Assembly (NCBI GenBank): GCA_017654935.2
Contig: CM065699.1
Coordinates: forward strand, 1,063,074 to 1,127,073
DNA: 64,000 nucleotides
Direction of reading: 5' to 3'
DNA from: Phymorhynchus buccinoides
Taxonomy: Eukaryota; Mollusca; Gastropoda; Neogastropoda; Raphitomidae
Shown here piece by piece: positions 720-37,612 of this stretch (positions are counted from its first letter, which is position 1; each line of letters opens with the position of its first letter). Position numbers and translations under genes: made by a program. The notes beneath the pieces are model-generated. The model had not been told where the DNA came from. It was given only the letters and a program-made list of their open reading frames with translations, and did no database searches.

Positions 720-1226
720 AGATACAGAGCAGAGATCACTTTATCTCACCATGGGAACAGACAGAGTGCTGGTAGCACTGAGCAGAGATCACTTTATCTC
801 ACCATGGGAACAGACAGAGTGCTGGTAGCATTGAGCAGAGATCACTTTATCTCACCATGGGAACAGACAGAGTGCTGGTAGCATTGAGCAGAGATCACTT
901 TATCTCACCATGGGAACAGACAGAGTGCTGGTAGCATTGAGCAGAGATCACTTTATCTCACCATGGGAACAGACAGAGTGCTGGTAGCATTGAGCAGAGA
1001 TCACTTTATCTCACCATGGGAACAGACAGAGTGCTGGTAGCATTGAGCAGAGATCACTTTATCTCACCATGGGAACAGACAGAGTGCTGGTAGCATTGAG
1101 CAGAGATCACTTTATCTCACCATGGGAACAGACAGAGTGCTGGTAGCATTGAGCAGAGATCACTTTATCTCACCATGGGAACAGACAGAGTGCTGGTAGC
1201 ATTGAGCAGAGATCACTTTATCTCAC
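720..1226 (-). repeat. 53-bp array carrying copies of the exon I donor site
   Basis: About 9.5 copies with an exact 53-bp period (for example 781, 834, 887). On the minus strand each unit contains the last 27 nt of exon I, ending TCTGTTCCCATG, followed by the donor gtgagataaag and about 15 further intron bases. The array starts at the real donor (1226/1227) and runs into the intron. Every unit is therefore a potential 5' splice site, and a 53-nt step would shift the frame. Confidence 0.9.
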
Positions 1227-1358
1227 CATGGGAACAGACAGAGTGCTGGTAGCGTTTCCCTGCAGGACGTAGGTACAGTTGACCATGAGGTAGTCTTTGA
1301 AGCCGTTGGGTGGTTTGGGTGTCACAGAGTTCATCAGTTTCAGCCGGTTCTGGATTTG
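1227..1358 (-). CDS. ANKRD11/12-like gene, exon I (C-terminal domain, partial)
   Basis: This exon has 132 nt and 44 codons, beginning QIQNRLKLMNSVTPKPPNGF and ending TLSVPM. The acceptor is tttattgtgtgcag|CAAATC and the donor is CCCATG|gtgaga; both ends are phase 0, matching exon H. The sequence aligns with the conserved C-terminal domain of vertebrate ANKRD11/12, around the segment IRKKIEEKRKILCCITPQAP, which is needed there for nuclear regulatory and turnover functions. Relative to that alignment the H/I junction carries one extra Gln. The rest of the C-terminal domain must lie left of the window. Confidence 0.85.
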
Positions 1359-1435
1359 CTGCACACAATAAATAAATAACACAATATGAATACCATGTAG
1401 ACAAAAATACAAATAATTAATCAATAACAAGAGAT

Positions 1436-1504
1436 AGTTGTTGAAACCGTTGGGCGGTTTGGGCATCACCGAGGTAATCAGTTTCAGCCGGTTCTGGATT
1501 TGCC
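1436..1504 (-). pseudogene. Decayed partial duplicate of exon I
   Basis: The minus-strand sequence reads QIQNRLKLITSVMPKPPNGF, nearly the first 20 codons of exon I, about 146 bp upstream of the real exon. The similarity fades after roughly 70 bp into an A/T-rich reading with no matching donor. The preceding AG (ccctgag|g) is one base out of frame for joining to exon H. It looks like an old local duplication that lost its splice sites. A use as an alternative exon is possible but not supported by phase. Confidence 0.75.
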
Positions 1505-1589
1505 TCAGGGTAAATATCATGCATGGTTTGAAATTCTAAGGGGTGATCTGAGACTAGCGCTTATAAACGCACAATTTACAGCTTTTGAC

Positions 1590-5075: not shown

Positions 5076-5127
5076 TGTCTGGTGTACAGTGTGCTACATT
5101 ACACTACAATATAACTATATAATGTAC

Positions 5128-5336
5128 CTGTCTCCTCAGATTCAGGAACAGCTCATAGGGGTTGGGGGGTTTCTCCAGCACCACGTCGCGTGCCTCGGCC
5201 TGTTCTCTGGTCTGGGCCTCGGTTTTGGCGCGGAGCTTTCTCTTCCTGGGGTGGACGGCCATGTCGTCCTGAGGACCCACGGGGCCGGTGCCCGTGTCAG
5301 ACGTGGGCTCTGCATCGTCCTTGGTCTCTGAGAACT
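5128..5336 (-). CDS. ANKRD11/12-like gene, exon H
   Basis: This exon has 209 nt. Acceptor gttgtgtgcag|AGTTCTC; donor AGACAG|gtacat. It begins with two nucleotides that complete the phase-1 end of exon G (G|AG, Glu) and ends in phase 0. It encodes FSETKDDAEP..., then HPRKRKLRAKTEAQTREQAEARDVVLEK in overlapping view, and ends NPYELFLNLRRQ. The basic HPRKRK-type motif followed by the NPY segment is the hallmark of the start of the ANKRD11/12 C-terminal domain. Confidence 0.88.
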
Positions 5337-5985
5337 CTGCACACAACAGTACAACAATGCTGTAGAACTCTGCACACAACAGTACAACAACGCTGTAGAA
5401 CTCTGCACACAACAGTACAACAATGCTGTAGAACTCTGCACACAACAGTACAACAACGCTGTAGAACTCTGCACACAACAGTACAACAATGCTGTAGAAC
5501 TCTGCACACAACAGTACAACAACGCTGTAGAACTCTGCACACAACAGTACAACAATGCTGTAGAACTCTGCACACAACAGTACAACAATGCTGTAGAACT
5601 CTGCACACAACAGTACAACAATGCTGTAGAACTCTGCACACAACAGAACAACAATGCTGTAGAACTCTGCACACAACAGCAACAATGCTGTAGAACTCTG
5701 CACACAACAGTACAACAATGCTGTAGAACTCTGCACACAACAGTACAACAATGCTGTAGAACTCTGCACACAACAGTACAACAATGCTGTAGAACTCTGC
5801 ACACAACAGAACAACAATGCTGTAGAACTCTGCACACAACAGTACAACAACGCTGTAGAACTCTGCACACAACAGTACAACAATGCTGTAGAACTCTGCA
5901 CACAACAGTACAACAACGCTGTAGAACTCTGCACACAACAGTACAACAATGCTGTAGAATTCTGCACACAACAGAACAATGCTGG
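5337..5985 (-). repeat. 35-bp array carrying copies of the exon H acceptor site
   Basis: About 18 copies. On the minus strand each unit reads AGTTCT acagcattgttgta ctgttgtgtgcag, so it holds the real acceptor with its upstream tract plus the first six exon bases. The array ends exactly at the exon H acceptor. The step of 35 nt would shift the frame. Units alternate aatgctg/aacgctg, and two lack the 'gt' of 'cagtac'. Confidence 0.9.
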
Positions 5986-5987
5986 TT

Positions 5988-6080
5988 ATAATAATAATGG
6001 GAATTCATATAGCGCTCTTTTTCACATGAGCTCAGTGCGCTTTACATTTATAACAAGAACATTAAAGGCAAAAAATAATG
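5988..6080. mobile_element. Terminal fragment of an interspersed (SINE-like) repeat
   Basis: The stretch containing TATAGCGCTC, CACATGAGCTCAGTGCGC and ACAAGAACATTAAAGGC recurs in reverse orientation at 37095-37190. This type of sequence (AGCGCTATATAAA near the end, next to ATT repeats) is common at the ends of invertebrate SINE-like elements. The family name is not known. Confidence 0.6.
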
Positions 6081-6179
6081 AACAAGGGCATCGCTGAGTG
6101 GCAGATATGTCCTTTGCCGGCAACGCCCTGTACCTCCCTTGCCCCTCACATGTTAGGCCCCCATCCTCCTTGTGTCCTT

Positions 6180-7260: not shown

Positions 7261-7261
7261 G

Positions 7262-7941: not shown

Positions 7942-7943
7942 CA

Positions 7944-8195: not shown

Positions 8196-8394
8196 TGAAA
8201 TAAAATCATACTGCCATCGACATACCAATTACATGACTAATTATAAAAGACAAATTTTGCAAGAACAAAAATACCCTTCTACCTCATTTACAAGCATTTA
8301 AAGTTTACAAGACGTAGACATTCTACATACAATATACGAATTATAAAAATTTTTTAAATACATTTTTTCTACAAGATTTCTGCAAAGAAACGGA

Positions 8395-10998: not shown

Positions 10999-11089
10999 TG
11001 TATGCAAATTTAAACATTCACAGAGGATTAACCAAGGTCAAGTTATTTTTTGATATCCAATTCTAAAGCAAAACAGGCTAGCTGCTGAT

Positions 11090-11552
11090 GTATGAGGAAT
11101 GGACATGATACATTCTTGGTGGATAATCCTGACAGCAACAGAATGGAATGCCCACCAACAGTTATGAGAAAAGAGATGGACAGAACCAGACATCGCCTAA
11201 AGCTAGGCTCCTTTGGAGTCGGCATGGACCCTCGATCCTGTCCCAACAATAAACCTAACAGTAAAACAATGCCCACCAACAGTTATGAGAAAAGAGATGG
11301 ACAGAACCAGACATCGCCTAGCATCCTACCTTTGGAGTCGGCATGGACCCTCGATCCTGTCCCAACAATAATCCTAACAGTAAAACAATGCCCACCAACA
11401 GTTATGAGAAAAGAGATGGACAGAACCAGACATCGCCTAGCATCCTACCTTTGGAGTCGGCATGGACCCTCGATCCTGTCCCAACAATAATCCTAACAGT
11501 AAAACAATGCCCACCAACAGTTCAACACACACAGCCCTGACGTGCATCCTAC
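11090..11552 (-). repeat. 119-bp array carrying copies of the exon G donor site
   Basis: About 3.5 copies. GCATCCTACC starts at 11321 and 11440 (119 bp), with a final partial step to the real site at 11544. On the minus strand each unit has an exon-like end GTCCATGCCGACTCCAAAG joined to the donor gtaggatgc, close to exon G's own end GCAGACTCCAGAG|gtaggatgc. About 30 nt of exon edge is thus copied with the splice site. The remaining unit is intronic. Confidence 0.85.
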
Positions 11553-13462
11553 CTCTGGAGTCTGCCCTGGACCCTCTGTCCTGGCCTTCCCGGTCCCTGT
11601 CCCCCCTGCTGTGGGCCGACGATGATTTGTGCTTCTCCTGCTGCTGCTGCTTCATGGCCGTGTGGGAACGCAGCGTGCGTGTGGGCCGTGACTCCTCCCT
11701 CTCCTCTTCCTCCCCCTCCTCATCCTCCAGCCTCTCCCCTTCTCCCTCCTCCCCCTCTGGCCCGTTGCTGGTTGCCTCCTCCTTGGGAGGGAGGGAGGAT
11801 TCCGGAGGAATAGCTTTCGAAGAGGCTTTCTCCTCTCGGTCCCCAGAACCGGTTGGTGAGCCGGGACGGGAGAGCGGTTTAGGGGAAGGGGCATTGGTCG
11901 TCAAGTTTTCTTCGAAGGGGAAGGGTAGCAGGCCGGAAAGAGTGGGCAATTGCCTCCCTTCGTCAGCGTCTGCCCCTTCCACGTTCCAGTGGGGGGCGCT
12001 GTTGAGCACGTAGGGCAGGGCGGGTTTGATGGGGGGCTTGGTCTGGTCGGGGGCGTGGGGGGCCGCAGTGGCTTTCTGCGAGGGCAGGATGATCTTGAGC
12101 GGCGGCACTTTAGGACACGCCGCTCGCTCAGCCTCCGAACTCCCCGCACTCTCCTCCACCTCCATGCGGAGCGGGGAACTCGCTGAACTGTCAGACTTCT
12201 CCGCCGACAACAAATCGGGGAAGGTCTTGGGCGAGGCTCGGTCAGCTCGCGCCGACAGCCCGTCCCATCGAAAAGGTTGAGGACTACTGGATGGAAACGA
12301 AGATGAGGAAACCGTGTTTGTGTGCGACACCGCGACGCTCGTCAGCGCGACACTGCTGTCACTGATCCCTGAACTATTGACGCACGAAATGCCGCCACCA
12401 ACACCACCACTACTACCACCACTACCTCGCCGATGAAGCTGGGAAGTCCTGTCGGAACTGGAACAATCTTTATCCACGCTACTCCCTGTGGTAGAGGTCA
12501 CTCCGGTTCGCGACACCCACCCCCCTAAATGGGGCGTGGCGGCCCCTGAAGAAGTGACGCTGTGGTTCACTCTGTCCTCTGGAATGTGCGCATGCTGACA
12601 ACTCTCCCCTCCGCCCGCAGCATTCAGCTGACAACTCTCCCCTCCGCCCGCAGCATTCAGCTGACAACTCTCCCCTCCGCCCGCAGCATTCAGCTGACAA
12701 CTCTCTCCTCCGCCCGCAGCATTCAGCTGACAACTCTCCCCTCCGCCCGCAGCATTCAGCTGACAACTCTCCCCTCCGCCCGCAGCATTCAGCTGACAAC
12801 TCTCCCCTCCGCCCGCAGCATTCAGCTGACAACTCTCTCCTCCGCCCGCAGCATTCAGCTGAGGGCGGCCCTTTCCCCCGCCTGTCCTGAACACGGTTTT
12901 ATCGTTATTATCGTCATCATCGCTCACATCCTCCATCGGCTGAGGGGTGAAAGGTTCCGTGCGCAAACGCTGCAAGGAACTCACTCCCTGAGAGGACGGG
13001 GAGGGGGTGAGGGTAGGGGGGTGGGGGCCTTTCCATTCCCCCCCTCCCCCTCTCTCTTCCGAAGAGTCCGGGCCCACACCGTGCACTTTGAGAGAAGGAA
13101 TCGATGACGATAACGACGACGACGATGATGATGATGGGGGCAGAGAGGAAACGCTGTTCTGCCCCCCACCACTCACCCCCCACCGTTGATTGTTATGATG
13201 ATGATGGTGATGCGAGTGGTCCGTAAAGTGGGTGGGAGGTTGTTCTTTCTCCTCCCCTCCCCCCTCCATGGTGGACACTGGGCTGCAGGCGGGGGAGGGT
13301 CTATTTCCAGCACGGGGGTGGAGGGTTGTTCTATCGCGGTAGTGGGGGTGGGGGGTGGGGGGCGTCAGTTGATGCTGTGGTTGTTGCTGTTGGTCGCCGG
13401 TGTCCATGGTGAGGATGTATGATTTGAACATGGGTTCCTTGGAGTCTGTGCTTTTCCTGTGA
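11553..13462 (-). CDS. ANKRD11/12-like gene, exon G (large low-complexity exon)
   Basis: This exon has 1,910 nt. Acceptor tgttgtttgcag|TCACAGG; donor TCCAGAG|gtagga. The first base completes the phase-2 end of exon F (AG|T, Ser), and it ends in phase 1, matching exon H. In order it encodes a Gln/Pro-rich start, a His run, Ser-rich and Gly-rich stretches, and eight copies of an 11-residue [11 protein letters not shown] repeat. Next come a [10 protein letters not shown] motif, an acidic [10 protein letters not shown] tract and [20 protein letters not shown]. It replaces the very large middle exon of vertebrate ANKRD11/12 in position but has little alignable sequence. The basic, Arg-rich end resembles the vertebrate segment just before the C-terminal domain. 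Confidence 0.85.
12597..12862 (-). repeat. 33-bp in-frame coding repeat in exon G, 8 copies
   Basis: The unit encodes [11 protein letters not shown] (11 aa) and is nearly invariant at the nucleotide level (only ctcc/ctct changes). Homogeneity at silent sites suggests recent expansion. The 33-bp length keeps the frame. Confidence 0.95.
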
Positions 13463-13484
13463 CTGCAAACAACAATACGATGCA

Positions 13485-13640
13485 TGTAATAGTTTATCAC
13501 TGTTACCATCTCTATTCTCTACAAACAGACTCACTGCACCGCCACACTATCAAGAAGATGTATGTAATAGTTTATCACTTTTACCATGCTCTATTCTCTA
13601 CAAACAGACTCACTGCAATGCCACACTATCAAGATACACA
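13485..13640. repeat. Two-copy repeat (about 78 bp) beside the exon G acceptor
   Basis: GTAATAGTTTATCACT...CTACAAACAGACTCACTGCA occurs twice, starting about 23 bp from the acceptor. On the minus strand each copy includes a tctgtttgtag stretch similar to the real ttgtttgcag acceptor. The similarity is weak and counted only as a possible splice-site copy. Confidence 0.7.
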
Positions 13641-14234: not shown

Positions 14235-14433
14235 CTCTGTCCCTGATTGTTCCCCTGTTCCTCCCCACTAGAAGAGGCGGCAGATTTGAACTTGAGGAAC
14301 AGTCTTGGCGAGGGCAGTGGTTTGTCGACGGGCGATTTGGGCGGCAGACTCATGCGGCGATTGGCGATGGTTCCCGGTGTACATGAGTTGTCACCCTTCA
14401 CCATGGACATGGACGAGCTGCGAGGCTTGAGGT
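14235..14433 (-). CDS. ANKRD11/12-like gene, exon F
   Basis: This exon has 199 nt. Acceptor cactgtgtctccag|ACCTCAAG; donor GGACAGAG|gtacag. It starts with two nucleotides completing the phase-1 end of exon E (G|AC, Asp) and ends in phase 2, matching exon G. It encodes LKPRSSSMSMVKGDNSC, then MSLPPKSPVDKPLPSPRLFLKF and an acidic Gln-rich end. It is a Ser/Pro-rich linker with basic SP sites. No domain is recognised. Placement in the gene rests on splice sites and phase. Confidence 0.75.
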
Positions 14434-17230
14434 CTGGAGACACAGTGACTGGGTAGACACACAAAGGATTCACACAGACCTGCCACCCCCCTAACAGACC
14501 AAAGAGGCTTGAGGTCTGGAGACAGACAGTGACTGGGTAGACACACCAGAGGACAGACAGTGACTGGGTAGAGACACACCAGAGGACACAGTGACTGGGT
14601 AGAGACACCAGAGGACAGACAGTGACTGGGTAGAGACACCAGAGGACAGACAGTGACTGGGTAGACACACCAGAGGACAGACAGTGACTGGGTAGAGACA
14701 CCAGAGGACAGACAGTGACTGGGTAGAGACACACCAGAGGACAGACAGTGACTGGGTAGACACACCAGAGGACAGACAGTGACTGGGTAGAGACACAGTG
14801 ACAGAGGACAGACAGTGACTGGGTAGAGACACACCAGAGGACAGACAGTGAGGGTAGACACACCAGAGGACAGACAGTGACTGGGTAGACACACCAGAGG
14901 ACAGACAGTGACTGGGTAGACACACCAGAGGACAGACAGTGACTGGGTAGAGACACCAGAGGACAGACAGTGACTGGGTAGACACACCAGAGGACAGACA
15001 GTGACTGGGTAGAGACACCAGAGGACAGACAGTGACTGGGTAGAGACACACCAGAGGACAGACAGTGACTGGGTAGACACACCAGAGGACAGACAGTGAC
15101 TGGGTAGACACACCAGAGGACAGACAGTGACTGGGTAGAGACACCAGAGGACAGACAGTGACTGGGTAGAGACACACCAGAGGACAGACAGTGACTGGGT
15201 AGAGACACCAGAGGACAGACAGTGACTGGGTAGAGACACACCAGAGGACAGACAGTGACTGGGTAGAGACACACCAGAGGACAGACAGTGACTGGGTAGA
15301 GACACACCAGAGGACAGACAGTGACTGGGTAGACACACCCAGAGGACAGACAGTGACTGGGTAGAGACACACCAGAGGACAGACAGTGACTGGGTAGAGA
15401 CACACCAGAGGACAGACAGTGACTGGGTAGAGACACCAGAGGACAGACAGTGACTGGGTAGAGACACACCAGAGGACAGACAGTGACTGGGTAGAGACAC
15501 CAGAGGACAGACAGTGACTGGGTAGAGACACACCAGAGGACAGACAGTGACTGGGTAGAGACACCAGAGGACAGACAGTGACTGGGTAGAGACACACCAG
15601 AGGACAGACAGTGACTGGGTAGAGACACACCAGAGGACAGACAGTGACTGGGTAGAGACACCAGAGGACAGACAGTGACTGGGTAGAGACACCAGAGGAC
15701 AGACAGTGACTGGGTAGACACACCAGAGGACAGACAGTGACTGGGTAGACACACCAGAGGACACACCAGAGGACAGACAGTGACTGGGTAGAGACACACC
15801 AGAGGACAGACAGTGACTGGGTAGAGACACCAGAGGACAGACAGTGACTGGGTAGAGACACACCAGAGGACAGACAGTGACTGGGTAGAGACACCAGAGG
15901 ACAGACAGTGACTGGGTAGAGACACCAGAGGACAGACAGTGACTGGGTAGACACACCAGAGGACAGACAGTGACTGGGTAGAGACACCAGAGGACAGACA
16001 GTGACTGGGTAGACACACCAGAGGACAGACAGTGACTGGGTAGACACACCAGAGGACAGACAGTGACTGGGTAGACACACCAGAGGACAGACAGTGACTG
16101 GGTAGACACACCAGAGGACAGACAGTGACTGGGTAGACACACCAGAGGACAGACAGTGACTGGGTAGAGACACACAGAGGACAGACAGTGACTGGGTAGA
16201 GACACCAGAGGACAGACAGTGACTGGGTAGACACACCAGAGGACAGACAGTGACTGGGTAGAGACACACCAGAGGACAGACAGTGACTGGGTAGAGACAC
16301 ACCAGAGGACAGACAGTGACTGGGTAGACACACCAGAGGACAGACAGTGACTGGGTAGACACACCAGAGGACAGACAGTGACTGGGTAGACACACCAGAG
16401 GACAGACAGTGACTGGGTAGAGACACCAGAGGACAGACAGTGACTGGGTAGAGACACACCAGAGGACAGACAGTGACTGGGTAGAGACACCAGAGGACAG
16501 ACAGTGACTGGGTAGACACACCAGAGGACAGACAGTGACTGGGTAGAGACACCAGAGGACAGACAGTGACTGGGTAGACACACACCAGAGGACAGACAGT
16601 GACTGGGTAGAGACACACAGACAGAGGGTACAGACAGTGACTGGGTAGAGACACCAGAGGACAGACAGTGACTGGGTAGACACACCAGTGAGGGTAGACA
16701 CAGACAGACAGTGACTGGGTAGAGACACACCAGAGGACAGACAGTGACTGGGTAGAGACACCAGAGGACAGACAGTGACTGGGTAGACACACCAGAGGAC
16801 AGACAGTGACTGGGTAGAGACACACCAGAGGACAGACAGTGACTGGGTAGTGACACACCAGAGGACAGACAGTGACTGGGTAGAGACACCAGAGGACAGA
16901 CAGTGACTGGGTAGACACACCAGAGGACAGACAGTGACTGGGTAGAGACACCAGAGGACAGACAGTGACTGGGTAGACACACCAGAGGACAGACAGTGAC
17001 TGGGTAGACACACCAGAGGACAGACAGTGACTGGGTAGAGACACACCAGAGGACAGACAGTGACTGGGTAGACACACCAGAGGACAGACAGTGACTGGGT
17101 AGACACACCAGAGGACAGACAGTGACTGGGTAGAGACACCAGAGAACAGACAGTGACTGGGTAGAGACACACCAGAGGACAGACAGTGACTGGGTAGACA
17201 CACCAGAGGACAGACAGTGACTGGGTAGTG
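14434..17230 (-). repeat. 31/33-bp array next to the exon F acceptor
   Basis: About 85 units of the type ACCAGAGGACAGACAGTGAC TGGGTAGAGAC, in 31-bp and 33-bp versions. On the minus strand the unit reads tctacccagtcactgtctgtcctctgg, a pyrimidine-rich derivative of the sequence just before the exon F acceptor (cagtcactgtgtctccag). One microexon-type unit lies at 14474-14520 between exon and array. It is stop-free in all minus frames, giving false ORFs up to 1,041 aa. Confidence 0.9.
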
Positions 17231-18770
17231 ACACAAAGGATTCACTGTTACAGACCTGCCACCCCCCTAACAGACCAAAGAGGCTTGAGGTCTGGACACA
17301 GTGACTGGGTAGTGACACAAAGGATTCACTGTTACAGACTGCCACCCCCCTAACAGACCAAAGAGGCTTGAGGTCTGGAGACAGACAGTGACTGGGTAGT
17401 GACACAAAGGATTCACTGTTACAGACCTGCCACCCCCCTAACAGACCAAAGAGGCTTGAGGTCTGGACACAGTGACTGGGTAGTGACACAAAGGATTCAC
17501 TGTTACAGACTGCCACCCCCCTAACAGACCAAAGAGGCTTGAGGTCTGGAGACAGTGACTGGGTAGTGACACAAAGGATTCACTGTTACAGACCTGCCAC
17601 CCCCCTAACAGACCAAAGAGGCTTGAGGTCTGGACACAGTGACTGGGTAGTGACACAAAGGATTCACTGTTACAGACCTGCCACCCCCCTAACAGACCAA
17701 AGAGGCTTGAGGTCTGGACACAGTGACTGGGTAGTGACACAAAGGATTCACTGTTACAGACCTGCCACCCCCCTAACAGACCAAAGAGGCTTGAGGTCTG
17801 GACACAGTGACTGGGTAGTGACACAAAGGATTCACTGTTACAGACCTGCCACCCCCCTAACAGACCAAAGAGGCTTGAGGTCTGGAGACACAGTGACTGG
17901 GTAGTGACACAAAGGATTCACTGTTTGTAAACAGACCTGCCACCCCCCTAACAGACCAAAGAGGCTTGAGGTCTGGACACAGTGACTGGGTAGTGACACA
18001 AAGGATTCACTGTTACAGACCTGCCACCCCCCTAACAGACCAAAGAGGCTTGAGGTCTGGAGACAGTGACTGGGTAGTGACACAAAGGATTCACTGTTAC
18101 AGACAGATGCTGCCACCCCCCTAACAGACCAAAGAGGCTTGAGGTCTGGAGCTCCACAGTGACTGGGTAGTGACACAAAGGATTCACTGTTACAGACCTG
18201 CCACCCCCCTAACAGACCAAAGAGGCTTGAGGTCTGGAGACAGACAGTGACTGGGTAGTGACACAAAGGATTCACTGTTACAGACCTGCCACCCCCCTAA
18301 CAGACCAAAGAGGCTTGAGGTCTGGATCACAGTGACTGGGTAGTGACACAAAGGATTCACTGTTACATTTTTACCTGCCACCCCCCTAACAGACCAAAGA
18401 GGCTTGAGGTCTGGAGATCAATATTAGACAGAGCAGTGACTGGGTAGTGACACAAAGGATTCACTGTTACAGACCTGCCACCTTCCCCTAACAGACCAAA
18501 GAGGCTTGAGGTTTGGACACAGTGACTGGGTAGTGACACAAAGGATTCACACATACCTGCCACCCCCCTAACAGACCAAAGAGGCTTGAGGTCTGGAGAC
18601 AGATAGTGACTGGGTAGTGACAAAAGGATTCACACATACCTGCCACCCCCCTAACAGACCAAAGAGGCTTGAGGTCTGGAGACACATAGTGACTGGGTAG
18701 TGACAAAAGGATTCACACATACCTGCCACCCCCCTAACAGACCAAAGAGGCTTGAGGTCTGGAGAAGTGT
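17231..18770 (-). repeat. 82-88-bp array of microexon-like units, about 18 copies
   Basis: On the minus strand each unit has an acceptor (cactgtgtccag), a conserved 36-nt segment starting ACCTCAAGCCTC and ending GGGTGGCAG, then a GT donor and spacer ending gtcactacccagt. The first 12 nt equal the first 12 nt of exon F. The 36-nt segment is open in the gene's frame (DLKPLWSVRGVA, phase 1 to phase 1). The three units at the upstream end (18550-18760) have the stronger donor GCAG|gtatgtg; the others have gtctgt. Confidence 0.9.
18723..18758 (-). CDS. Candidate 36-nt microexon of the ANKRD11/12-like gene
   Basis: This is the most upstream unit of the array. Acceptor ggttacacttctccag|ACCTCAAG lies in a unique pyrimidine-rich context, and donor GGCAG|gtatgtgtg is a good consensus. 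Its length is 36 nt, phase 1 at both ends, so inclusion would insert 12 residues (LKPLWSVRGVA type) between exons E and F without changing frame. Skipping it also keeps the frame, so its use cannot be settled from sequence. It may be the founder of the array, or just another copy of the exon F edge. Confidence 0.4.
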
Positions 18771-22085: not shown

Positions 22086-22097
22086 TAACATCTTTAC

Positions 22098-23292
22098 CTT
22101 CACCCACCCCTGTAACATCTTTCACTCTATCTTTATATATCGCTATCTCACCATCACAGTCCAGGCCCCGGTCCTCATCTTTAATGGAAGCCAAACTCTC
22201 GGGTGAAGTGGGCGAGCGGACTTCATCCTCGCTATCTCTATCTTTATATATCGCTATCTCACCATCACAGTTCAGGCCCCGGTCCTCATCTTTAATGGAA
22301 GCCAAACTCTCGGGTGAAGTGGGCGAGCGGACTTCATCCTCGCTATCTCTATCTTTATATATCGCTATCTCACCATCACAGTTCAGGCCCCGGTCCTCAT
22401 CTTTAATGGAAGCCAAACTCTCGGGTGAAGTGGGCGAGCGGACTTCATCCTCGCTATCTCTATCTTTATCTTTATATATCGCTATCTCACCATCACAGTT
22501 CAGGCCCCGGTCCTCATCTTTAATGGAAGCCAAACTCTCGGGTGAAGTGGGCGAGCGGACTTCATCCTCGCTATCTCTATCTTTATCTTTATATATCGCT
22601 ATCTCACCATCACAGTTCAGGCCCCGGTCCTCATCTTTAATGGAAGCCAAACTCTCGGGTGAAGTGGGCGAGCGGACTTCATCCTCGCTATCTCTATCTT
22701 TATCTTTATATATCGCTATCTCACCATCACAGTTCAGGCCCCGGTCCTCATCTTTAATGGAAGCCAAACTCTCGGGTGAAGTGGGCGAGCGGACTTCATC
22801 CTCGCTATCTCTATCTTTATCTTTATATATCGCTATCTCACCATCACAGTTCAGGCCCCGGTCCTCATCTTTAATGGAAGCCAAACTCTCGGGTGAAGTG
22901 GGCGAGCGGACTTCATCCTCGCTATTTCTATCTTTATATATCGCTATCTCACCATCACAGTTCAGGCCCCGGTCCTCATCTTTAATGGAAGCCAAACTCT
23001 CGGGTGAAGTGGGCGAGCGGACTTCATCCTCGCTATCTCTATCTTTATCTTTATATATCGCTATCTCACCATCACAGTCCAGGCCCCGGTCCTCATCTTT
23101 AATGGAAGCCAAACTCTCGGGTGAAGTGGGCGAGCGGACTTCATCCCCACTGGATGTTTCACTGTTTGACGACACGATCTCTCGTGTCAGCAGCTTCTTG
23201 ACAGTGACATCGTGTGCCACGTCAATGGGCGTCTGACCTTTGACATTGGGCTGATGGGCGTTGGCCCCGTGACGAAGCAAGATCGACACCAA
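22098..23292 (-). CDS. ANKRD11/12-like gene, exon E (last ankyrin unit plus acidic repeats)
   Basis: This exon has 1,195 nt. Acceptor cctttgtccccag|TTGGTG; donor GGTGAAG|gtaaag. It starts in phase 0 and ends in phase 1, matching D and F. It begins LVSILLRHGANAHQPNVKGQ and TPIDVAHDVTVKKLL, the end of the third and the fourth ankyrin repeat as in ANKRD11/12. A Ser/acidic linker SSNSETSSGD follows, then nine copies of a 37/39-residue unit (DEVRSPTSPESLASIKDEDR...EIAIYKD). The unit holds two SP/TP sites and is acidic. The vertebrate proteins also have an acidic serine-rich stretch here, but not this repeat. Confidence 0.85.
22125..23150 (-). repeat. 111/117-bp in-frame coding repeat in exon E, 9 copies
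   Basis: Units of 37 or 39 codons differ by one KD dipeptide (KDRDSE against KDKDRDSE). The first and last units encode GLDCDG, while the seven internal ones encode GLNCDG, so internal units probably spread from one variant. One unit has DRNSE. Nucleotide identity is near complete, suggesting recent expansion or concerted evolution. Confidence 0.95.
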
Positions 23293-23875: not shown

Positions 23876-24071
23876 CGAAGCCCCCGAAGCTAAGGCCTTT
23901 GTTGCACATTGTTACTAACACAATCGGGTCATTTAGAGACAGCATTCTCTTGCAGTTTTTTTAAACAATAATGATAAAACACTTTTTTTCTCATTTCAGG
24001 ATTCAGGATCTCTTGAAAACTAACAAAACCAAAATCATGATTCCTGCCATGTGGTATCATCCATACTATTC

Positions 24072-25830
<1,759 letters not shown>

Positions 25831-26235: not shown

Positions 26236-26427
26236 CAGCATAATCGGTGACGTTAACCGACGCCCCGGCTTTAATGAGGCGTCGTGCGTGTCTGACGTCG
26301 CCTCTTTTGGCCGCCAGGTGGAGCTGCGTCTCTCCACGCTCGTTGCGCTTGTTAACCTTTTTGTCGGCCGGCGTGCGCTTGGTGGAGGTCACCGAGGGGG
26401 GAGGGGAGGAGGGCTTGGGCGAGGAAT
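26236..26427 (-). CDS. ANKRD11/12-like gene, exon C (ankyrin repeat 1)
   Basis: This exon has 192 nt. Acceptor gtgtgatcccag|ATTCCTC; donor GATTATGCTG|gtatgg. The first two bases complete exon B's phase-1 end (G|AT, Asp); it ends in phase 1. It encodes SSPKPSSPPPSVTSTKRTPA, then DKKVNKRNERGETQLHLAAK, RGDVRHARRLIKAGASVNVT and DYA. The 'KVNKRNERGET' entry into the first ankyrin unit is diagnostic of ANKRD11/12. Confidence 0.95.
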
Positions 26428-27240
26428 CTGGGATCACACATGAACAGTCAGACACACTGCTATAATCTGGGATCATACGTCAACAGTCAGACACACTGCT
26501 ATAATCTGGGATCACACGTCAACAGTCAGACACACTGCTATAATCTGGGATCACACGTCAACAGTCAGACAGACTGCTATAATCTGGGATCACACGTGAA
26601 CAGTTAGACACACTGCTATAATCTGGGATCGCACGTCAACAGTCAGACACACTGCTATAATCTGGGATCACACGTGAACAGTTAGACACACTGCTATAAT
26701 CTGGGATCACACGTCAACAGTCAGACACACTGCTATAATCTGGGATCACACGTCAACAGTCAGACACACTGCTATAATCTGGGATCACACGTGAACAGTC
26801 AGACACACTGCTATAATCTGGGATCACACGTCAACAGTCAGACACACTGCTATAATCTGGGATCACACGTCAACAGTCAGACACACTGCTATAATCTGGG
26901 ATCACACATGAACAGTCAGACACACTGCTATAATCTGGGATCACACATGAACAGTCAGACACACTGCTATAATCTGGGATCACACGTCAACAGTCAGACA
27001 GACTGCTATAATCTGGGATCACACGTCAACAGTCAGACACACTGCTATAATCTGGGATCACACGTCAACAGATACACATACTGCTATAATCTGGGATCGC
27101 ACGTCAACAGTTAGACACACTGCTATAATCTGGGATCACATGTCAACAGATACACATACTGCTATAATCTGGGATCGCACGTCAACAGTTAGACACACTG
27201 CTATAATCTGGGATCACACGTCAACAGATACACATACTGC
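26428..27240 (-). repeat. 39-bp array carrying copies of the exon C acceptor site
   Basis: About 20 copies of CTGGGATCACACGTCAACAG TCAGACACACTGCTATAAT. On the minus strand each unit is a full acceptor, gtgtgtctgactgttgacgtgtgatcccag, ending at the same CCCAG|ATT as the true site. The array begins exactly at the exon border. A 39-nt step keeps the reading frame. The nearest unit reads open (13 codons, TGTTCATGT), but most others carry TGA at the gttgac/gtTGAc position. Confidence 0.92.
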
Positions 27241-27711
27241 TATAATACAGTCCAACATATGTTAGACATATTGCTATAATACAGTCCAATATAATCTAAC
27301 ACAGTGCGCATGAAAATAAAATAACCAGGGAAAATGTACACATGCATGCCTTGCTCACAGACAGACAGACACAGAGAAATCATCATCCAGTAAAAAGTAT
27401 GCAGCTTCCACATACTGCTTTTTTGTTGCTATGGAAACAATGCTATTGACACTATGCTTCATTACAAGAAATACAGGACATAAGGAAGACAGGAGGGAGG
27501 GAGGGAGGGGGGCCAGAAGGCAGAGGGAAAAGGGATGGGTGTTGGCTAATTGGTTGTAGCTTCCTTCTTCACATCTCATCCACATTTCATCCCCAGACAG
27601 CAGACCAGTTACCAGATTTTGTTCCGATATATTCCCATTTTCTGGGGCCATTTCATCCTGAGGACAGCTGGCTTCTGTGCCCAGAACCAACATGTGCCGG
27701 ATGATGAAGCC
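27241..27711. other. Intron B-C: no gene seen
   Basis: It contains the degenerate end of the 39-bp array, a GGGAGGGAGGGAGG purine stretch (about 27490) and otherwise unremarkable sequence. A 112-codon minus frame (27355-27693) has no recognisable domain. Confidence 0.5.
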
Positions 27712-28268: not shown

Positions 28269-28275
28269 GAAGCCA

Positions 28276-31200
28276 CAGACTGTGGACCATTGTGGTGGAC
28301 CATTGTGGTGGGTCATTGTGGTGGACCATTGTGGTGGGTCATTGTGGTGGACCATTGTGGTGGACCATTGTGGTGGGTCATTGTGGTGGACCATTGTGGT
28401 GGACCATTGTGGTGGGTCATTGTGGTGGACCATTGTGGTGGACATTGTGGTGGGTCATTGTGGTGGACCATTGTGGTGGGTCATTGTGGTGGACCATTGT
28501 GGTGGGTCATTGTGGTGGACCATTGTGGTGGGTCATTGTGGTGGACCATTGTGGTGGACCATTGTGGTGGACCATTGTGGTGGGTCATTGTGGTGGACCA
28601 TTGTGGTGGGTCATTGTGGTGGACCATTGTGGTGGGTCATTGTGGTGGACCATTGTGGTGGGTCATTGTGGTGGACCATTGTGGTGGGTCATTGTGGTGG
28701 ACCATTGTGGTGGGTCATTGTGGTGGGTCATTGTGGTGGGTCATTGTGGTGGGTCATTGTGGTGGGTCATTGTGGTGGGTCATTGTGGTGGACCATTGTG
28801 GTGGACCATTGTGGTGGACCATTGTGGTGGACCATTGTGGTGGACCATTGTGGTGGACCATTGTGGTGGACCATTGTGGTGGGTCATTGTGGTGGACCAT
28901 TGTGGTGGGTCATTGTGGTGGACCATTGTGGTGGACCATTGTGGTGGACCATTGTGGTGGGTCATTGTGGTGGACCATTGTGGTGGGTCATTGTGGTGGA
29001 CCATTGTGGTGGGTCATTGTGGTGGACCATTGTGGTGGGTCATTGTGGTGGACCATTGTGGTGGGTCATTGTGGTGGGTCATTGTGGTGGACCATTGTGG
29101 TGGGTCATTGTGGTGGACCATTGTGGTGGGTCATTGTGGTGGACATTGTGGTGGACATTGTGGTGGGTCATTGTGGTGGACCATTGTGGTGGGTCATTGT
29201 GGTGGACCATTGTGGTGGGTGGTGGGTCATTGTGGTGGACCATTGTGGTGGACCATTGTGGTGGACCATTGTGGTGGACCATTGTGGTGGACCATTGTGG
29301 TGGACCATTGTGGTGGACCATTGTGGTGGACCATTGTGGTGGGTCATTGTGGTGGACCATTGTGGTGGGTCATTGTGGTGGACCATTGTGGTGGGTCATT
29401 GTGGTGGACCATTGTGGTGGGTCATTGTGGTGGACCATTGTGGTGGACCATTGTGGTGGGTCATTGTGGTGGACCATTGTGGTGGACCATTGTGGTGGAC
29501 CATTGTGGTGGACCATTGTGGTGGGTCATTGTGGTGGACCATTGTGGTGGGTCATTGTGGTGGACCATTGTGGTGGACCATTGTGGTGGGTCATTGTGGT
29601 GGACCATTGTGGTGGACCATTGTGGTGGGTCATTGTGGTGGACCATTGTGGTGGGTCATTGTGGTGGGTCATTGTGGTGGACCATTGTGGTGGGTCATTG
29701 TGGTGGGTCATTGTGGTGGACCATTGTGGTGGGTCATTGTGGTGGGTCATTGTGGTGGACCATTGTGGTGGGTCATTGTGGTGGACCATTGTGGTGGACC
29801 ATTGTGGTGGACCATTGTGGTGGACCATTGTGGTGGGTCATTGTGGTGGACCATTGTGGTGGGTCATTGTGGTGGACCATTGTGGTGGGTGGTGGGTCAT
29901 TGTGGTGGACCATTGTGGTGGGTCATTGTGGTGGACCATTGTGGTGGGTCATTGTGGTGGACCATTGTGGTGGGTCATTGTGGTGGACCATTGTGGTGGG
30001 TCATTGTGGTGGGTCACCATTGTGGTGGGTCATTGTGGTGGGTCATTGTGGTGGGTCATTGTGGTGGACCATTGTGGTGGGTCATTGTGGTGGGTCATTG
30101 TGGTGGACCATTGTGGTGGACCATTGTGGTGGACCATTGTGGTGGACCATTGTGGTGGACCATTGTGGTGGACCATTGTGGTGGACCATTGTGGTGGACC
30201 ATTGTGGTGGGTCATTGTGGTGGACCATTGTGGTGGACCATTGTGGTGGACCATTGTGGTGGACCATTGTGGTGGGTCATTGTGGTGGACCATTGTGGTG
30301 GACCATTGTGGTGGGTCATTGTGGTGGACCATTGTGGTGGACCATTGTGGTGGACCATTGTGGTGGACCATTGTGGTGGGTCATTGTGGTGGACCATTGT
30401 GGTGGGTCATTGTGGTGGACCATTGTGGTGGGTCATTGTGGTGGACCATTGTGGTGGGTCATTGTGGTGGACCATTGTGGTGGGTCATTGTGGTGGACCA
30501 TTGTGGTGGGTCATTGTGGTGGGTCATTGTGGTGGACCATTGTGGTGGGTCATTGTGGTGGGTCATTGTGGTGGACCATTGTGGTGGACCATTGTGGTGG
30601 GTCATTGTGGTGGACCATTGTGGTGGGTCATTGTGGTGGGTCATTGTGGTGGACCATTGTGGTGGACCATTGTGGTGGGTCATTGTGGTGGGTCATTGTG
30701 GTGGGTGTGGTGGACCATTGTGGTGGGTCATTGTGGTGGACCATTGTGGTGGACCATTGTGGTGGACCATTGTGGTGGACCATTGTGGTGGACATTGTGG
30801 TGGACCATTGTGGTGGACCATTGTGGTGGGTCATTGTGGTGGACCATTGTGGTGGACCATTGTGGTGGACCATTGTGGTGGGTCATTGTGGTGGACCATT
30901 GTGGTGGACCATTGTGGTGGGTCATTGTGGTGGGTCATTGTGGTGGACATTGTGGTGGGTCATTGTGGTGGACCATTGTGGTGGACCATTGTGGTGGGTC
31001 ATTGTGGTGGACCATTGTGGTGGACCATTGTGGTGGGTCATTGTGGTGGACCATTGTGGTGGACCATTGTGGTGGGTCATTGTGGTGGACCATTGTGGTG
31101 GACCATTGTGGTGGGTCATTGTGGTGGACCATTGTGGTGGGTCATTGTGGTGGACCATTGTGGTGGGTCATTGTGGTGGACCATTGTGGTGGGTCATTGT

Positions 31201-31925
31201 GGTGGACCATTGTGGTGGACCATTGTGGTGGGTCATTGTGGTGGGTCATTGTGGTGGGTCATTGTGGTGGACCATTGTGGTGGACCATTGTGGTGGACCA
31301 TTGTGGTGGACCATTGTGGTGGACCATTGTGGTGGGTCATTGTGGTGGACCATTGTGGTGGGTCATTGTGGTGGACCATTGTGGTGGACCATTGTGGTGG
31401 GTGGGTCATTGTGGTGGACCATTGTGGTGGACCATTGTGGTGGGTCATTGTGGTGGACCATTGTGGTGGGTCATTGTGGTGGGTCATTGTGGTGGACCAT
31501 TGTGGTGGGTCATTGTGGTGGGTCATTGTGGTGGACCATTGTGGTGGGTCATTGTGGTGGACAGTGGACATTGTGGTGGACCATTGTGGTGGGTGATTGT
31601 GGTGGACCATTGTGGTGGGTGATTGTGGTGGACCATTGTGGTGGGTGATTGTGGTGGACCATTGTGGTGGGTGATTGTGGTGGACCATTGTGGTGGGTGA
31701 TTGTGGTGGACCATTGTGGTGGACCATTGTGGTGGGTGGTGGGTCATTATGGTGGACCATTGTGGTGGACCATTGTGGTGGGTCATTGTGGTGGACCATT
31801 GTGGTGGGTCATTGTGGTGGACCATTGTGGTGGGTCATTGTGGTGGACCATTGTGGTGGGTCATTGTGGTGGACAGTGTGGGTCATTGTGGTGGGTCATT
31901 GTGGTGGACATTGTGGTGGACCATT
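28276..31925. repeat. 13-bp minisatellite with two unit types, about 280 copies
   Basis: Units are GGACCATTGTGGT and GGGTCATTGTGGT in irregular order over 3.6 kb, with rare 10-bp or 8-bp slips (for example 28440, 29150, 29218, 30705). A GGGTGATTGTGGT variant clusters at 31590-31700. The 13-bp unit has no stop in any plus frame, so three overlapping ORFs of 1,104-1,128 codons are artefacts. It is intronic (B-C). Confidence 0.97.
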
Positions 31926-32030
31926 TGTGGTGGAGCCCTCTTCCTGCCTCACACGTCTCATGATGGTGGACCATTTGTGGTGGAGCCCTCTTCTTGCCTC
32001 ACACATCTCATGACGCTGGGTCTCCACAGT
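31926..32030. repeat. Two-copy 51-bp segment at the minisatellite edge
   Basis: CCATTTGTGGTGGAGCCCTC TTC(C/T)TGCCTCACAC occurs twice (about 31920 and 31971). The flank of the minisatellite has been duplicated with part of a unit. Confidence 0.8.
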
Positions 32031-32054
32031 CTACCGGAAATGTTATGGTTCCAA

Positions 32055-33325: not shown

Positions 33326-33447
33326 CTCTGGGGCAGCCGCACTGATCTGGAGAAGACTGCCAACTTTGTCACAGCTACAGGTTTAACAGTCTGACAGTGA
33401 CACTGCCAAACGCAATGAATGCAGAACGAGCATACAAACTGACTGAC

Positions 33448-33633
33448 CTCCCTGCTGCGTCTCATCAGTCATGCGCAGCAGCAGTGCCATCTGCTGTCTT
33501 TCCGACAGCGGCACGCCATGGCTGCGCACGTTGCCACCTGTGACGCCCCGCGGAGACGAGCTGTTGCCGGGGTCAGGGGTGGAGGGGTCAAAGCCCAGAG
33601 GTCGCTTCCTCTTGGCCCCACTCACCTTCTTGT
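33448..33633 (-). CDS. ANKRD11/12-like gene, exon B
   Basis: This exon has 186 nt. Acceptor gttggctgtttcag|ACAAGAAG; donor GGGAG|gtcagt. Two bases complete exon A's phase-1 end (G|AC, Asp); it ends in phase 1. It encodes KKVSGAKRKRPLGFDPSTPD, then GNVRSHGVPLSERQQMALLL and RMTDETQQG. The PLSERQQ-ALL motif just ahead of the ankyrin block matches the same position in vertebrate ANKRD11/12. The KRKRP cluster could be a nuclear localisation signal. Confidence 0.9.
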
Positions 33634-33908
33634 CTGAAACAGCCAACAGACACGCTGAAATAACACATGTAACAACAGACACGCTGAAATAACACATGTA
33701 ACAACAGACACGCTGAAATAACACATGTAACAACAGACACGCTGAAATAACACATGTAACAACAGACACGCTGAAATAACACATGTAACAACAGACACGC
33801 TGAAATAACACATGTAACAACAGACACGCTGAAATAACACATGTAACAACAGACACGCTGAAATAACACATGTAACAACAGACACGCTGAAATAACACAT
33901 GTAACAAC
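33634..33908 (-). repeat. 29-bp array of acceptor-like units upstream of exon B
   Basis: Nine near-identical copies of ACAGACACGCTGAAATAACA CATGTAACA. On the minus strand each unit ends in gttatttcag, a good acceptor. The real acceptor (ggctgtttcag) follows the last partial unit (cgtgtctgttg) directly. A 29-nt step is not frame-preserving. Confidence 0.9.
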
Positions 33909-33989
33909 AACAGCATAAAAAAACCTAAAATAATTATGCAGGTTTGTTCTATTTGGCCCCTGCTCATTTTCTTGTGCACAACGTCCAAA

Positions 33990-35290
33990 TACATGTTGGA
34001 TCATGTGGGGCCAGGCATGGTCTAGCTGCCACCCCCAGTTGGATCATGTGGGGCCAGGCATGGTCTAGCTCAGTTTATCTCCACGGCATAACTACCACCC
34101 CTAGTTGGATCATGTGGGGCCAGGCATGGTCTAGCTGCCACCCCCAGTTGGATCATGTAGGGCCAGGCATGGTCTAGCTCAGTTTATCTCCACGGCATAA
34201 CTACCACCCCTAGTTGGATCATGTGGGGCCAGGCATGGTCTAGCTCAGTTTATCTCCACGGCATAACTACTACCCCTAGTTGGATCATGTGGGGCCAGGC
34301 ATGGTCTAGCTCAGTTTATCTCCACGGCATAACTACCACCCCTAGTTGGATCATGTGGGGCCAGGCATGGTCTAGCTCAGTTTATCTCCACGGCATAACT
34401 ACCACCCCTAGTTGGATCATGTGGGGCCAGGCATGGTCTAGCTCAGTTTATCTCCACGGCATAACTACCACCCCTAGTTGGATCATGTGGGGCCAGGCAT
34501 GGTCTAGCTCAGTTTATCTCCACGGCATAACTACCACCCCTAGTTGGATCATGTGGGGCCAGGCATGGTCTAGCTCAGTTTATCTCCACGGCATAACTAC
34601 TACCCCTAGTTGGATCATGTGGGGCCAGGCATGGTCTAGCTCAGTTTATCTCCACGGCATAACTACTACCCCCAGTTGGATCATGTGGGGCCAGGCATGG
34701 TCTAGCTCAGTTTATCTCCACGGCATAACTACTACCCCTAGTTGGATCATGTGGGGCCAGGCATGGTCTAGCTCAGTTTATCTCCACGGCATAACTACCA
34801 CCCCTAGTTGGATCATGTGGGGCCAGGCATGGTCTAGCTCAGTTTATCTCCACGGCATAACTACTACCCCCAGTTGGATCATGTGGGGCCAGGCATGGTC
34901 TAGCTCAGTTTATCTCCACGGCATAACTACCACCCCTAGTTGGATCATGTGGGGCCAGGCATGGTCTAGCTCAGTTTATCTCCACGGCATAACTACTACC
35001 CCCAGTTGGATCATGTGGGGCCAGGCATGGTCTAGCTCAGTTTATCTCCACGGCATAACTACCACCCCTAGTTGGATCATGTGGGGCCAGGCATGGTCTA
35101 GCTCAGTTTATCTCCACGGCATAACTACTACCCCCAGCTGGATCATGTGGGGCCAGGCATGGTCTAGCTCAGTTTATCTCCACGGCATAACTACTACCCC
35201 CAGCTGGATCATGTGGGGCCAGGCATGGTCTAGCTCAGTTTATCTCCACGGCATAACTACTACCCCCAGCTGGATCATGTGGGGTCATGG
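33990..35290. repeat. 66-bp tandem array, about 19 copies
   Basis: TTGGATCATGTGGGGCCAGG CATGGTCTAGCTCAG plus the CATAACTACCACCCCTAG tail repeats every 66 bp. The first two units are rearranged and shorter. It is open in one plus frame for 359 codons only because 66 is a multiple of three. It lies inside the A-B intron. Confidence 0.97.
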
Positions 35291-35384
35291 TAACTGATCA
35301 AGGAACTACTGGGATAAATGAAGACTTAAACGAACTTTACTGAAATTCACTTTGGCCCGTGACACTGACCTTCATTGTAATAGG

Positions 35385-35743
35385 GGTCAGGGGTCAACAG
35401 TTTACTAAATAACCTTGACCTTCATCGTCTAAGTGGTCATAGGTCAACAGTGTACAGAATGACCTTGACCTGTGACACTGACATTCACCGCAAAGGGGGT
35501 CAGGGGTCAACAGTTTACTCATGATCCCGACACTGACTTTCATCGTCTTAGGGGTCAACAGTTTACTAAATAACCTTGACCTGTGACACTGACCTAAATC
35601 GTCTAAGGGGTCAGGGGTCAACAGTTTACTCAATGACTTTGACACTGTCATCGTCTTAGGGGTCAACAGTTTACTAAATGACCATGACCTGTGACACTGA
35701 CCTTTGTCTAGTTTACTAAATGATCTTGACCTGTGACACTGAC
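35385..35743 (-). repeat. Degenerate array carrying copies of the exon A donor site
   Basis: About six units of 45-65 bp. On the minus strand they contain an exon-like end CTGTTGACCCCTGACCCCTT..GACGATGAAG followed by gtcagtgtcac and an intron-like TTGACC...AGTAAA tail. About 31 nt of exon A are copied with the donor. Copies are diverged and partly truncated, so this array is older than most others here. Confidence 0.85.
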
Positions 35744-35831
35744 CTTCATCGTCTAAGGGGTCAGGGGTCAACAGTTTTCGCTTAATGGCTCTGCCCTCCG
35801 ACTGTGGTCCTCCTACTACAAGGGGTTTCTC
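35744..35831 (-). CDS. ANKRD11/12-like gene, exon A (most upstream exon found)
   Basis: This exon has 88 nt. Acceptor ttactgtgtgttccag|GAGAAACC; donor GATGAAG|gtcagtg. It starts in phase 0 and ends in phase 1, as required by exon B. It encodes EKPLVVGGPQSEGRAIKRKL and LTPDPLDDE. The RAIKRKL segment recalls the ERASKRKLP stretch near the vertebrate N-terminus. Homology is suggestive rather than strong; inclusion rests on splice sites and phase. The start codon must lie in an exon not identified (above 37 kb or outside the window). Confidence 0.75.
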
Positions 35832-37612
35832 CTGGAACACACAGTAATACACACATGTAAATCAATGAGAACAACACTACGGTACACTGTAGCACACACA
35901 GTAATACACACATGTAAATCAATGAGAACAACACTACGGTACACTGCAGAGACACGCAGAGTAATACACACATGTAAATCAATGAGTACAACACTACGGT
36001 ACACTGTAACACACAGAGTAATACACACATGTAAATCAATGAGAACAACACTACGGTACACTGTAACACACAGAGTAATACACACATGTAAATCAATGAG
36101 AACAACACTACGGTACACTGTAACACACAGTAATACACACATGTAAATCAATGAGAACAACACTACGGTACACTGTAACACACACATGTAAATCAATGAG
36201 AACAACACTACGGTACACTGTAACACACACATGTAAATCAATGAGAACAACACTACGGTACACTGTAACACACAGTAATACACACATGTAAATCAATGAG
36301 AACAACACTACGGTACACTGTAACACACAGTAATACACACATGTAAATCAATGAGAACAACACTACGGTACACTGTAACACACAGTAATACACACATGTA
36401 AATCAATGAGAACAACACTAAGGTACACTGTAACACACAGAGTAATACACACATGTAAATCAATGAGAATGACACTAAAATACACTGTAACACACAGAGT
36501 AATATGCACATGTATAATCAATGAGAACAACACTAAAATACACTGTAACACACAGAGTAATACGCACATGTAAATCAATGAGAACACTAAAATACACTGT
36601 AACACACAGTAATACACACATGTAAATCAATGAGAACAACACTACGGTACACTGTAACACACAGAGTAATACACACATGTAAATCAATGAGAACAACACT
36701 AAGGTACACTGTAACACACAGTAATACACACATGTAAATCAATGAGAATGACACTAAAATACACTGTAACACACAGTAATACACACATGTAAATCAATGA
36801 GAACACTAAAATACACTGTAACACACAGAGTAATACACACATGTAAATCAATGAGAATGACACTTAAACACACTTGCAGTATTGTATTCAAACTTGATTG
36901 AGAATGTGAATGTGGTCTCTATGTTTCTTCTTAGAATGTTCATATTGTAACTATTTTACTCTTGTATAATGAATTGTGTGTGTGTGTGTGTGCGCATGCA
37001 TGTGTATGTGTGTGCGCGCACGCGTGTGCGCAAGGAAGTAAGAGAACGTTGCGTGCAAGCATCGTGCTTATTTTACTTTCTAATGATTAATTATTTGTTT
37101 GCCTTTAATGTTCTTGTTATCAATGTAAAGCGCACTGAGCTCATGTGAGAAAGAGCGCTATATAAATTCCCATTATTATTATTATTATAAATACACATGC
37201 ACATCAATGAGAATGACACTAAGGTACATTGGAACACACACACATAAATACACACATGTAAATCAATAAGAACAACACTAAAATACACTGGAAGACACAG
37301 AGAAATACACATGTAAATCAATGAGAATGACACTTAAATACACTGTAACACACAGAGAAATACACACATGTAAATCAATGAGAATGACAAATACACTGTA
37401 ACACACAGAGAAATACACATGTAAATCAATGAGAATGACAAATACACTGTAACACACACAGAGAAATACACATGTAAATCAATGAGAATGACACTTAAAT
37501 ACACTGTAACACACAGAGAAATACACATGTAAATCAATGAGAATGACAAATACACTGTAACACACAGAGAAATACACATATGTAAATCAATGAGAATGAC
37601 ACTTAAATACAT
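35832..37612 (-). repeat. About 56-bp array carrying acceptor-like units upstream of exon A
   Basis: Units ACACATGTAAATCAATGAGA ACAACACTACGGTACACTGT AACACACAGTAAT. On the minus strand each contains tgtgtgttacag, close to the real tgtgtgttccag acceptor. The array starts exactly at exon A. It is interrupted at 36885-37195 by an interspersed element and continues to about 37612 with slightly different units (agaaatacacatg). Confidence 0.85.
36885..37195 (-). mobile_element. Interspersed SINE-like repeat inside the exon A upstream array
   Basis: In reverse orientation it contains both blocks seen separately at 5988-6080 and 7944-8195: AGCGCTATATAAATTCCCATTATTATT at the end, GTAAAGCGCACTGAGCTCAT, GAACGTTGCGTGC, a (TG)n/CG-rich tract, and AACTATTTTACTCTTG. 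It splits one tandem array, so it inserted after the array existed. No RNA polymerase III promoter boxes were identified with confidence. Confidence 0.65.

Follow-up and report, generated by a model that had tools for sequence, protein, structure and literature searches.

Do introns grow by repeated copying of the borders of their own exons? The question is raised by a gene of the ANKRD11/12 type in the gastropod Phymorhynchus buccinoides, which lies on the minus strand of a 64,000-nucleotide stretch of DNA (hereafter the window; C20:1063074-1127073 in a genome of 2.12 Gb, about 1 Mb from the end of its contig). A preliminary description of the window had listed nine exon borders of this gene at which tandem arrays carry sense-strand copies of the border's own splice site. 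It had proposed that the introns had grown either through local duplication seeded at splice junctions or through selection keeping only those arrays whose units remain spliceable. Our analysis of this gene, and of three families of motor-protein genes from the same genome, leads us to a related reading, to which we give a probability of roughly 0.6: exon-intron borders unusually often acquire and retain short tandem duplications that cross them, splicing at the innermost sites hides the copies, and introns grow from their ends. Intron lengthening is usually credited to transposons together with random insertions and deletions. The border arrays of the ANKRD gene do lengthen its introns, as first described, and suggest an unusual mode of intron growth.

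Results

Tandem arrays at the exon borders of the ANKRD gene

Arrays were called with Tandem Repeats Finder, and a junction copy was counted wherever a same-strand match to the 16 nt of a border (8+8), with at most three mismatches, lay no more than 4 kb away. Seven of the 18 borders in the window have two or more such copies (A3', 6; D3', 17; E3', 8; F5', 15; G3', 2; H5', 19; I3', 9), and antisense copies number zero at all 18. Copies limited to the intron edge (its last 16 bases, no exon sequence) occur at A5' (13), C5' (20), and D5' (2), while B5' and G5', with one junction copy and none, fall below this measure. Eight of the nine borders originally listed carry clear splice-site arrays, B5' being the weak case, and the list had passed over the array at E3'.

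On the donor side, the array at A3' (35336..35743; all arrays and exons of the gene are on the minus strand) repeats at least 34 nt of exon edge with the donor GTCAGTG and is older (78% match). The units of the D3' array (24071..25553) measure 81-83 bp and include 17 nt of exon edge followed by GTGTGTTG, and the G3' array (11147..11552) has a 119-bp unit with about 34-40 nt of diverged exon edge and GTAGGATGC. At I3' (727..1253), a 53-bp unit combines 27-30 nt of exon with GTGAGATAAAG, and the 27-nt exon edge is identical in nine spare copies. The E3' array (22128..23146) is built from a 117-bp unit holding about 77 nt of exon E and the donor. It is open in frame, and it counts as a border array because the first donor copy marks the end of exon E.

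At the acceptor A5' (35832..36864), a unit of about 55 bp ends at the AG and exon sequence is not copied, and at C5' (26425..27246) the 39-bp unit has TGATCCCAG before the splice point and ATT after it. The arrays at F5' (14521..18765) consist of an 84-bp unit that includes 12 nt of exon, TCTCCAG being followed by ACCTCAAGCCTC, and of a 31-bp array situated between such units; the H5' array (5331..5979) has a 33-bp unit in which TGTGTGCAG is followed by AGTTCT. Three acceptors show weaker forms. The B5' array (33644..33909), a 29-bp unit with the acceptor-like TTTCAG, ends 10 nt before the acceptor. D5' (25683..25821, 26-bp unit) and G5' (13479..13634, two copies of 79 bp) are weak, as had been said of them, and merely abut, lying 3 and 16 nt from the acceptor; the G5' repeat was called in one repeat finder run and was missing from the opposite-strand run. 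The exon parts initially given for the units, 15-30 nt at donors and 0-12 nt at acceptors, proved too narrow: the exon part reaches about 77 nt within the window, and in other genes it reaches about 115 nt.

Downstream of the window, exons J to M were located by tblastn with the Babylonia and Littorina proteins, and four of the seven borders from J5' to M5' are affected: K3' is spanned by a 96-bp unit (2 copies at the exon and about 8 more some 4.4 kb on), L3' by a 75-bp unit (11 copies), and M5' by a 103-bp unit (6 copies), while L5' is abutted at 7 nt. The two parts of the K3' array (L008 582-1354 and 5727-5912) are separated by about 4.4 kb of other sequence in an insertion-like arrangement. 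Over 50 kb of the gene, 36 array loci cover 26 kb. The arrays are made of head-to-tail copies of units of tens of base pairs, as in minisatellites, and they overlap exon-intron boundaries, as placed by phase and relatives, in the manner of internal tandem repeats at exon borders.

The coding frame at the array-bearing borders

Exon borders were set by splice phase, giving nine exons in the window: A (35744..35831), B (33448..33633), C (26236..26427), D (25537..25679), F (14235..14433), G (11553..13462), H (5128..5336), I (1227..1358), and E (23070..23292), which, judged from relatives, ends at the first donor copy, GATG followed by GTGAGATAG. Joined, they form one frame of 1094 aa with no stop, and with J to M the 13 exons make 1272 codons, likewise with no stop. 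The best protein relatives of the ANKRD frame come from Babylonia areolata, which matches 38% of the query at 78% identity, and from Littorina saxatilis and Nucella lapillus. Junction lengths were checked in an alignment with five relatives for exons A to I, and from tblastn together with a by-eye comparison with the Babylonia row for J to M. Relative to Babylonia, the sole gap at a junction is one residue at A/B, which four of the five relatives possess and which is missing in this snail and in Littorina. At F/G and H/I, more distant relatives differ in length, and the Nucella record is without exons H and I. Apart from the A/B residue, the relatives' lengths are kept at the ANKRD junctions, and the arrays lie on the intron side of the borders.

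Two further features involve exon sequence of this gene. Exon G contains an in-frame 33-bp coding array (12594-12862, minus strand; 11-aa unit, about 8 copies) that is missing in the five aligned relatives. An intronic, diverged partial copy of exon I (1430-1503, minus strand) lies about 70 nt upstream of that exon and, by eye, is missing a good donor.

Duplications are in excess close to exon borders

Instead of raw repeat coverage, a fairer measure asks how frequently a border falls within the founding unit of an array, with only the nearest copy and only intron bases considered. Scored in this way, a duplication starts 0-25 nt from the border at 12 of 25 ANKRD borders, compared with 1-3 of 25 in each bin between 150 and 800 nt; among scorable 0-25 nt windows of these borders, 39% start a repeat, versus approximately 2-7% per bin at 150-800 nt.

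Because the window had been chosen for its border arrays, we sampled three families of motor-protein genes from the same genome: 40 myosin-head exons from 68 matches, 20 kinesin exons from 127, and 17 dynein exons from 127. The exons were hand-picked down the score lists before their flanks were viewed, with near-duplicate loci, most small contigs, and some unclear frames omitted. Eight of the 154 borders were dropped for an unclear splice site, leaving 146 scorable borders in 77 exons. Counting arrays with units of at least 20 bp, 25 of these borders are spanned, 8 others have an array abutting at a distance of about 20 nt or less, and 113 show neither; one or both borders are spanned in 23 of the 77 exons, and the spanned borders are spread over 15 contigs, each longer than 41 Mb. 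By family, arrays span 13 of 74 myosin, 9 of 40 kinesin, and 3 of 32 dynein borders. Donors and acceptors are spanned at rates that do not differ (11 of 72 and 14 of 74), and match scores show no difference between motor exons with and without border arrays.

As a background, 18 random pieces of C20 (144.9 kb excluding N) contain 61 arrays with units of at least 20 bp, or 0.42 per kb, from which 4.3 spanned borders are expected where 25 were observed (Poisson P about 7e-12). For young arrays (at least 95% match), a hand count gives 10 on motor borders versus 1.23 expected (P about 7e-7). A comparison with overall array density, named at the outset as a possible refutation, has come out in two ways: raw coverage of the ANKRD gene is not exceeded at its borders, but the expectation with each array collapsed to its seed is exceeded at the motor borders.

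The excess is also graded with distance. In a scan for duplication starts restricted to intron sequence (25-nt bins, shift up to 110), the motor borders give.082,.101,.067,.063,.028, and.011 starts per bin from 0 to 150 nt, against.013 per bin at random C20 positions. Starts are thus approximately seven times the background less than 50 nt from a border and have returned to the background level by 125-150 nt.

Outside the motor proteins, 87 of 93 TCP1-family candidates were scored, and among four exons sampled from 54 matches a spare acceptor edge is present at one of eight borders (L108). Two TCP1 exon matches 2.6 kb apart (C27:30848853 and C27:30851499) both have a 956-aa open frame, which suggests a stop-free stretch around or between them.

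Make-up and history of the copied units

The units straddle the splice site, with a median exon part of about 65 nt and a median intron part of about 50 nt, although in several rows the script had skipped to a later copy. The intron part is at least 23 nt at acceptors and at least 20 nt at donors, subject to the same skips, so that we make no claim of a branch-point requirement in acceptor units. Because the units straddle the splice site and have their breakpoints elsewhere, the hot zone comprises the exon edge and about 100 nt of intron. The original proposal of duplication seeded at splice junctions is upheld to the extent that border sequence is found in arrays far above random seeding, in the ANKRD and motor genes alike; the breakpoints themselves are not at the splice site.

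Individual loci record more than one event. Two dynein paralogs on C20 have different arrays at the same acceptor: paralog 1 has about three copies of a 121-bp unit, counting the functional border, and paralog 2 has a single spare copy of the 121-bp type, beyond which lies a 137-bp unit, repeated about 2.3 times, that shares the exon edge but has a different intron part. Since paralog 2 has two unit types with different intronic ends, this border was duplicated at least twice. In a kinesin gene, a spare 81-nt stretch of exon edge and donor is about 78% identical to the original and lies some 7.7 kb downstream of its exon, just before what is, by domain position, the next exon of the gene (family residues 159-243, then 242-289); its score is 45, whereas the maximum was 12 both among 200 shuffles and among other loci. 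Spare exon-edge matches lie on the predicted side, upstream for exon starts and downstream for exon ends, at 8 of 8 loci scorable by eye (one myosin, one kinesin, five dynein, and one TCP1 locus; two further dynein loci were unscorable). Across 26 arrays, the copy nearest the exon resembles the functional edge somewhat more, on average, than the farthest does (means.93 and.86).

Other features of the window

A 13-bp array of about 280 copies (28282-31934) is open in all three plus-strand frames for more than 1100 codons. Long open frames at 45944-48521 and 54805-56780 (minus strand) resemble, and may encode, reverse transcriptases of non-LTR (long terminal repeat) retrotransposons. A short AGGGAGGTCTTATAA-like motif recurs near exons of several genes (L040, L061, and L064) and is perhaps a dispersed element.

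Discussion

These observations are consistent with a simple course of events. The founding events would be short tandem duplications across exon-intron borders, most of them about 20-160 bp long. Each would copy an exon edge together with the adjoining splice site, so that a complete border stays nearest the exon and a spare one comes to lie deeper in the intron. If the innermost sites are spliced, under exon definition, the mRNA would be unchanged; copies could then accumulate on the intron side and the intron lengthen outward from its ends, older copies turning into ordinary intron sequence. The copies are probably mostly passive and removed with the intron, the use of the innermost sites being indicated by the protein lengths of relatives. 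The excess itself would reflect a raised rate of duplication at exons and not merely better survival of duplications there, and border copying is apparently widespread among the genes of this genome. A more far-reaching version, which we advance tentatively, is that in this lineage exon borders act as mutational hot spots at which tandem duplications form, perhaps in connection with transcription or splicing, and that introns accrete as older border copies are pushed deeper, with much of the intron being fossil exon edge.

Several results weigh against the proposal that border duplication is unusually frequent. Within the ANKRD gene, two or more junction-type copies occur at 62% of 400 random positions and at only 7 of 18 borders; this lack of a raw excess arises because long arrays render that share of the gene repetitive. 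On a strict reading of the repeat finder limits, the arrays fail to reach three borders, A3' (by 39 nt), F5' (by 87 nt), and G3' (by 30 nt), where the link to the border is made by the junction copies. The age gradient is weak, the nearest copy being better in 17 arrays, worse in 7, and equal in 2 (p =.064 for 17 of 24 unequal pairs). Dynein borders are spanned at a lower rate than those of myosin and kinesin, and the array background was drawn from one contig with introns not separated out. A paired test within flanks is modest (13 versus 3 of 127 borders for 0-25 versus 100-125 nt, p =.02). Motor flanks were viewed over only 250-400 nt, which makes intron-internal arrays harder to detect; those 49.4 kb contain 23 array rows, by eye amounting to about 8 independent ones, at distances of 20 nt or more from a border. 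Finally, splicing at the innermost sites is something that we infer from sequence comparison.

Survival or sampling bias may also lie behind part of the excess, and this bears on the alternative that minisatellites are born without regard to position in a repeat-rich genome, border cases seeming frequent through recognisable, less deletable exon copies and through an array-rich choice of window and exons. The array density of random C20 pieces and the repetitiveness of random ANKRD positions both fit this account. So does the selection of exons: only the best candidates were scored (myosin, 65 of 306; kinesin, 122 of 424; dynein, 122 of 246), which might give an advantage to exons whose edges have additional copies. 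In the motor sample, exon sequence makes up more of the unit than in the ANKRD gene (mean.55 versus.33, p =.029). By repeat finder limits, only 4 of the 25 spanning arrays hold 20 exon nt or fewer, so that the excess comes mostly from arrays with long exon parts, which candidate ranking could favour. Position-blind birth would not, however, readily account for an excess that persists in the intron-only and young-array counts, where exon conservation gives no help in detection, and that decays to baseline within 150 nt; we regard it as rather unlikely. An assembly artefact we consider scarcely credible: although tandem repeats generally pose difficulties for assembly, here units vary within arrays, arrays vary between paralogs, and spanned borders occur on 15 large contigs.

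Might the spare splice sites instead be selected as aids to splicing, redundant or reinforcing in long introns? The splice dinucleotide is intact in 83 of 85 spare junctions, above the 90% expected from the divergence of the flanks, but these copies are not independent because copies in one array share recent ancestry. With donors and acceptors affected alike and no reading-frame signal (unit lengths that are multiples of three, 9 of 25, are not in excess), such selection is very unlikely, and little was found for the earlier suggestion that only arrays with spliceable units are retained. Coding use of the units was likewise rejected for the absence of a multiple-of-three excess. A step in GC content was rejected as a cause, spanned and other borders being alike (p =.89); GC is not higher in array units than in their flanks (p =.25). 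Human variable number tandem repeats have reportedly been studied for enrichment in subtelomeric regions, and the window too is near a contig end. Array coverage on C20 is higher in some pieces close to either end, yet spanned borders also lie far from the ends of many contigs, and a subtelomeric cause was set aside.

The closest parallels in the literature differ in what is copied or in what results. Tandem duplication of a proto-splice site can yield new introns (PMC2891723), and there, as in the snail, an exon edge with its splice motif is tandemly copied. Intron gain by duplication of an AGGT-bearing exon piece would, however, make both ends of an intron copies of one exon segment; in those ANKRD introns that have arrays at both ends, the units at the two ends look unrelated by eye, and many copies occur within one intron. 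Although the units do copy exon edges with splice sites, we consider this origin most improbable: the snail arrays seemingly lengthen existing introns from their ends, whereas the published process creates new ones. In human segmental duplications, internal tandem repeats at exon-intron boundaries account for 27 intron modifications, often with alternative transcripts (PMC2812944). Both cases involve minisatellite expansion over exon-intron boundaries with altered intron structure, but the human genes are recently duplicated primate genes, whereas in the snail about one-sixth of the sampled borders in conserved motor-protein genes are affected, and the ANKRD coding sequence is unaltered relative to relatives bar one residue at one border.

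Genes of the UBC type, composed of tandem repeats, have dual-specific splice sites that combine donor and acceptor at the edge of the repeat unit (PMC10809524). They share with the snail gene repeat expansion, copies that are hidden or used by splicing, and introns embedded in repeats; there one site has both roles, whereas each snail unit straddles a site of one ordinary kind, either donor or acceptor. The repeat-filled introns of the "missing" genes of chicken (PMC6792250) resemble those of the snail in consisting largely of tandem repeats; the passages of that paper compared do not mention exon content in the units, whereas the snail units carry exon edges. Our literature search did not find border copying across a genome in ordinary conserved genes.

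If the rate of about one in six sampled borders holds genome-wide, exon borders would be a source of intron sequence, and the question would be raised of why duplication peaks within 100 nt of exons. The natural arrays would then allow splice-site choice to be studied among near-identical copies, and the spare exon edges would mislead gene prediction in such genomes.

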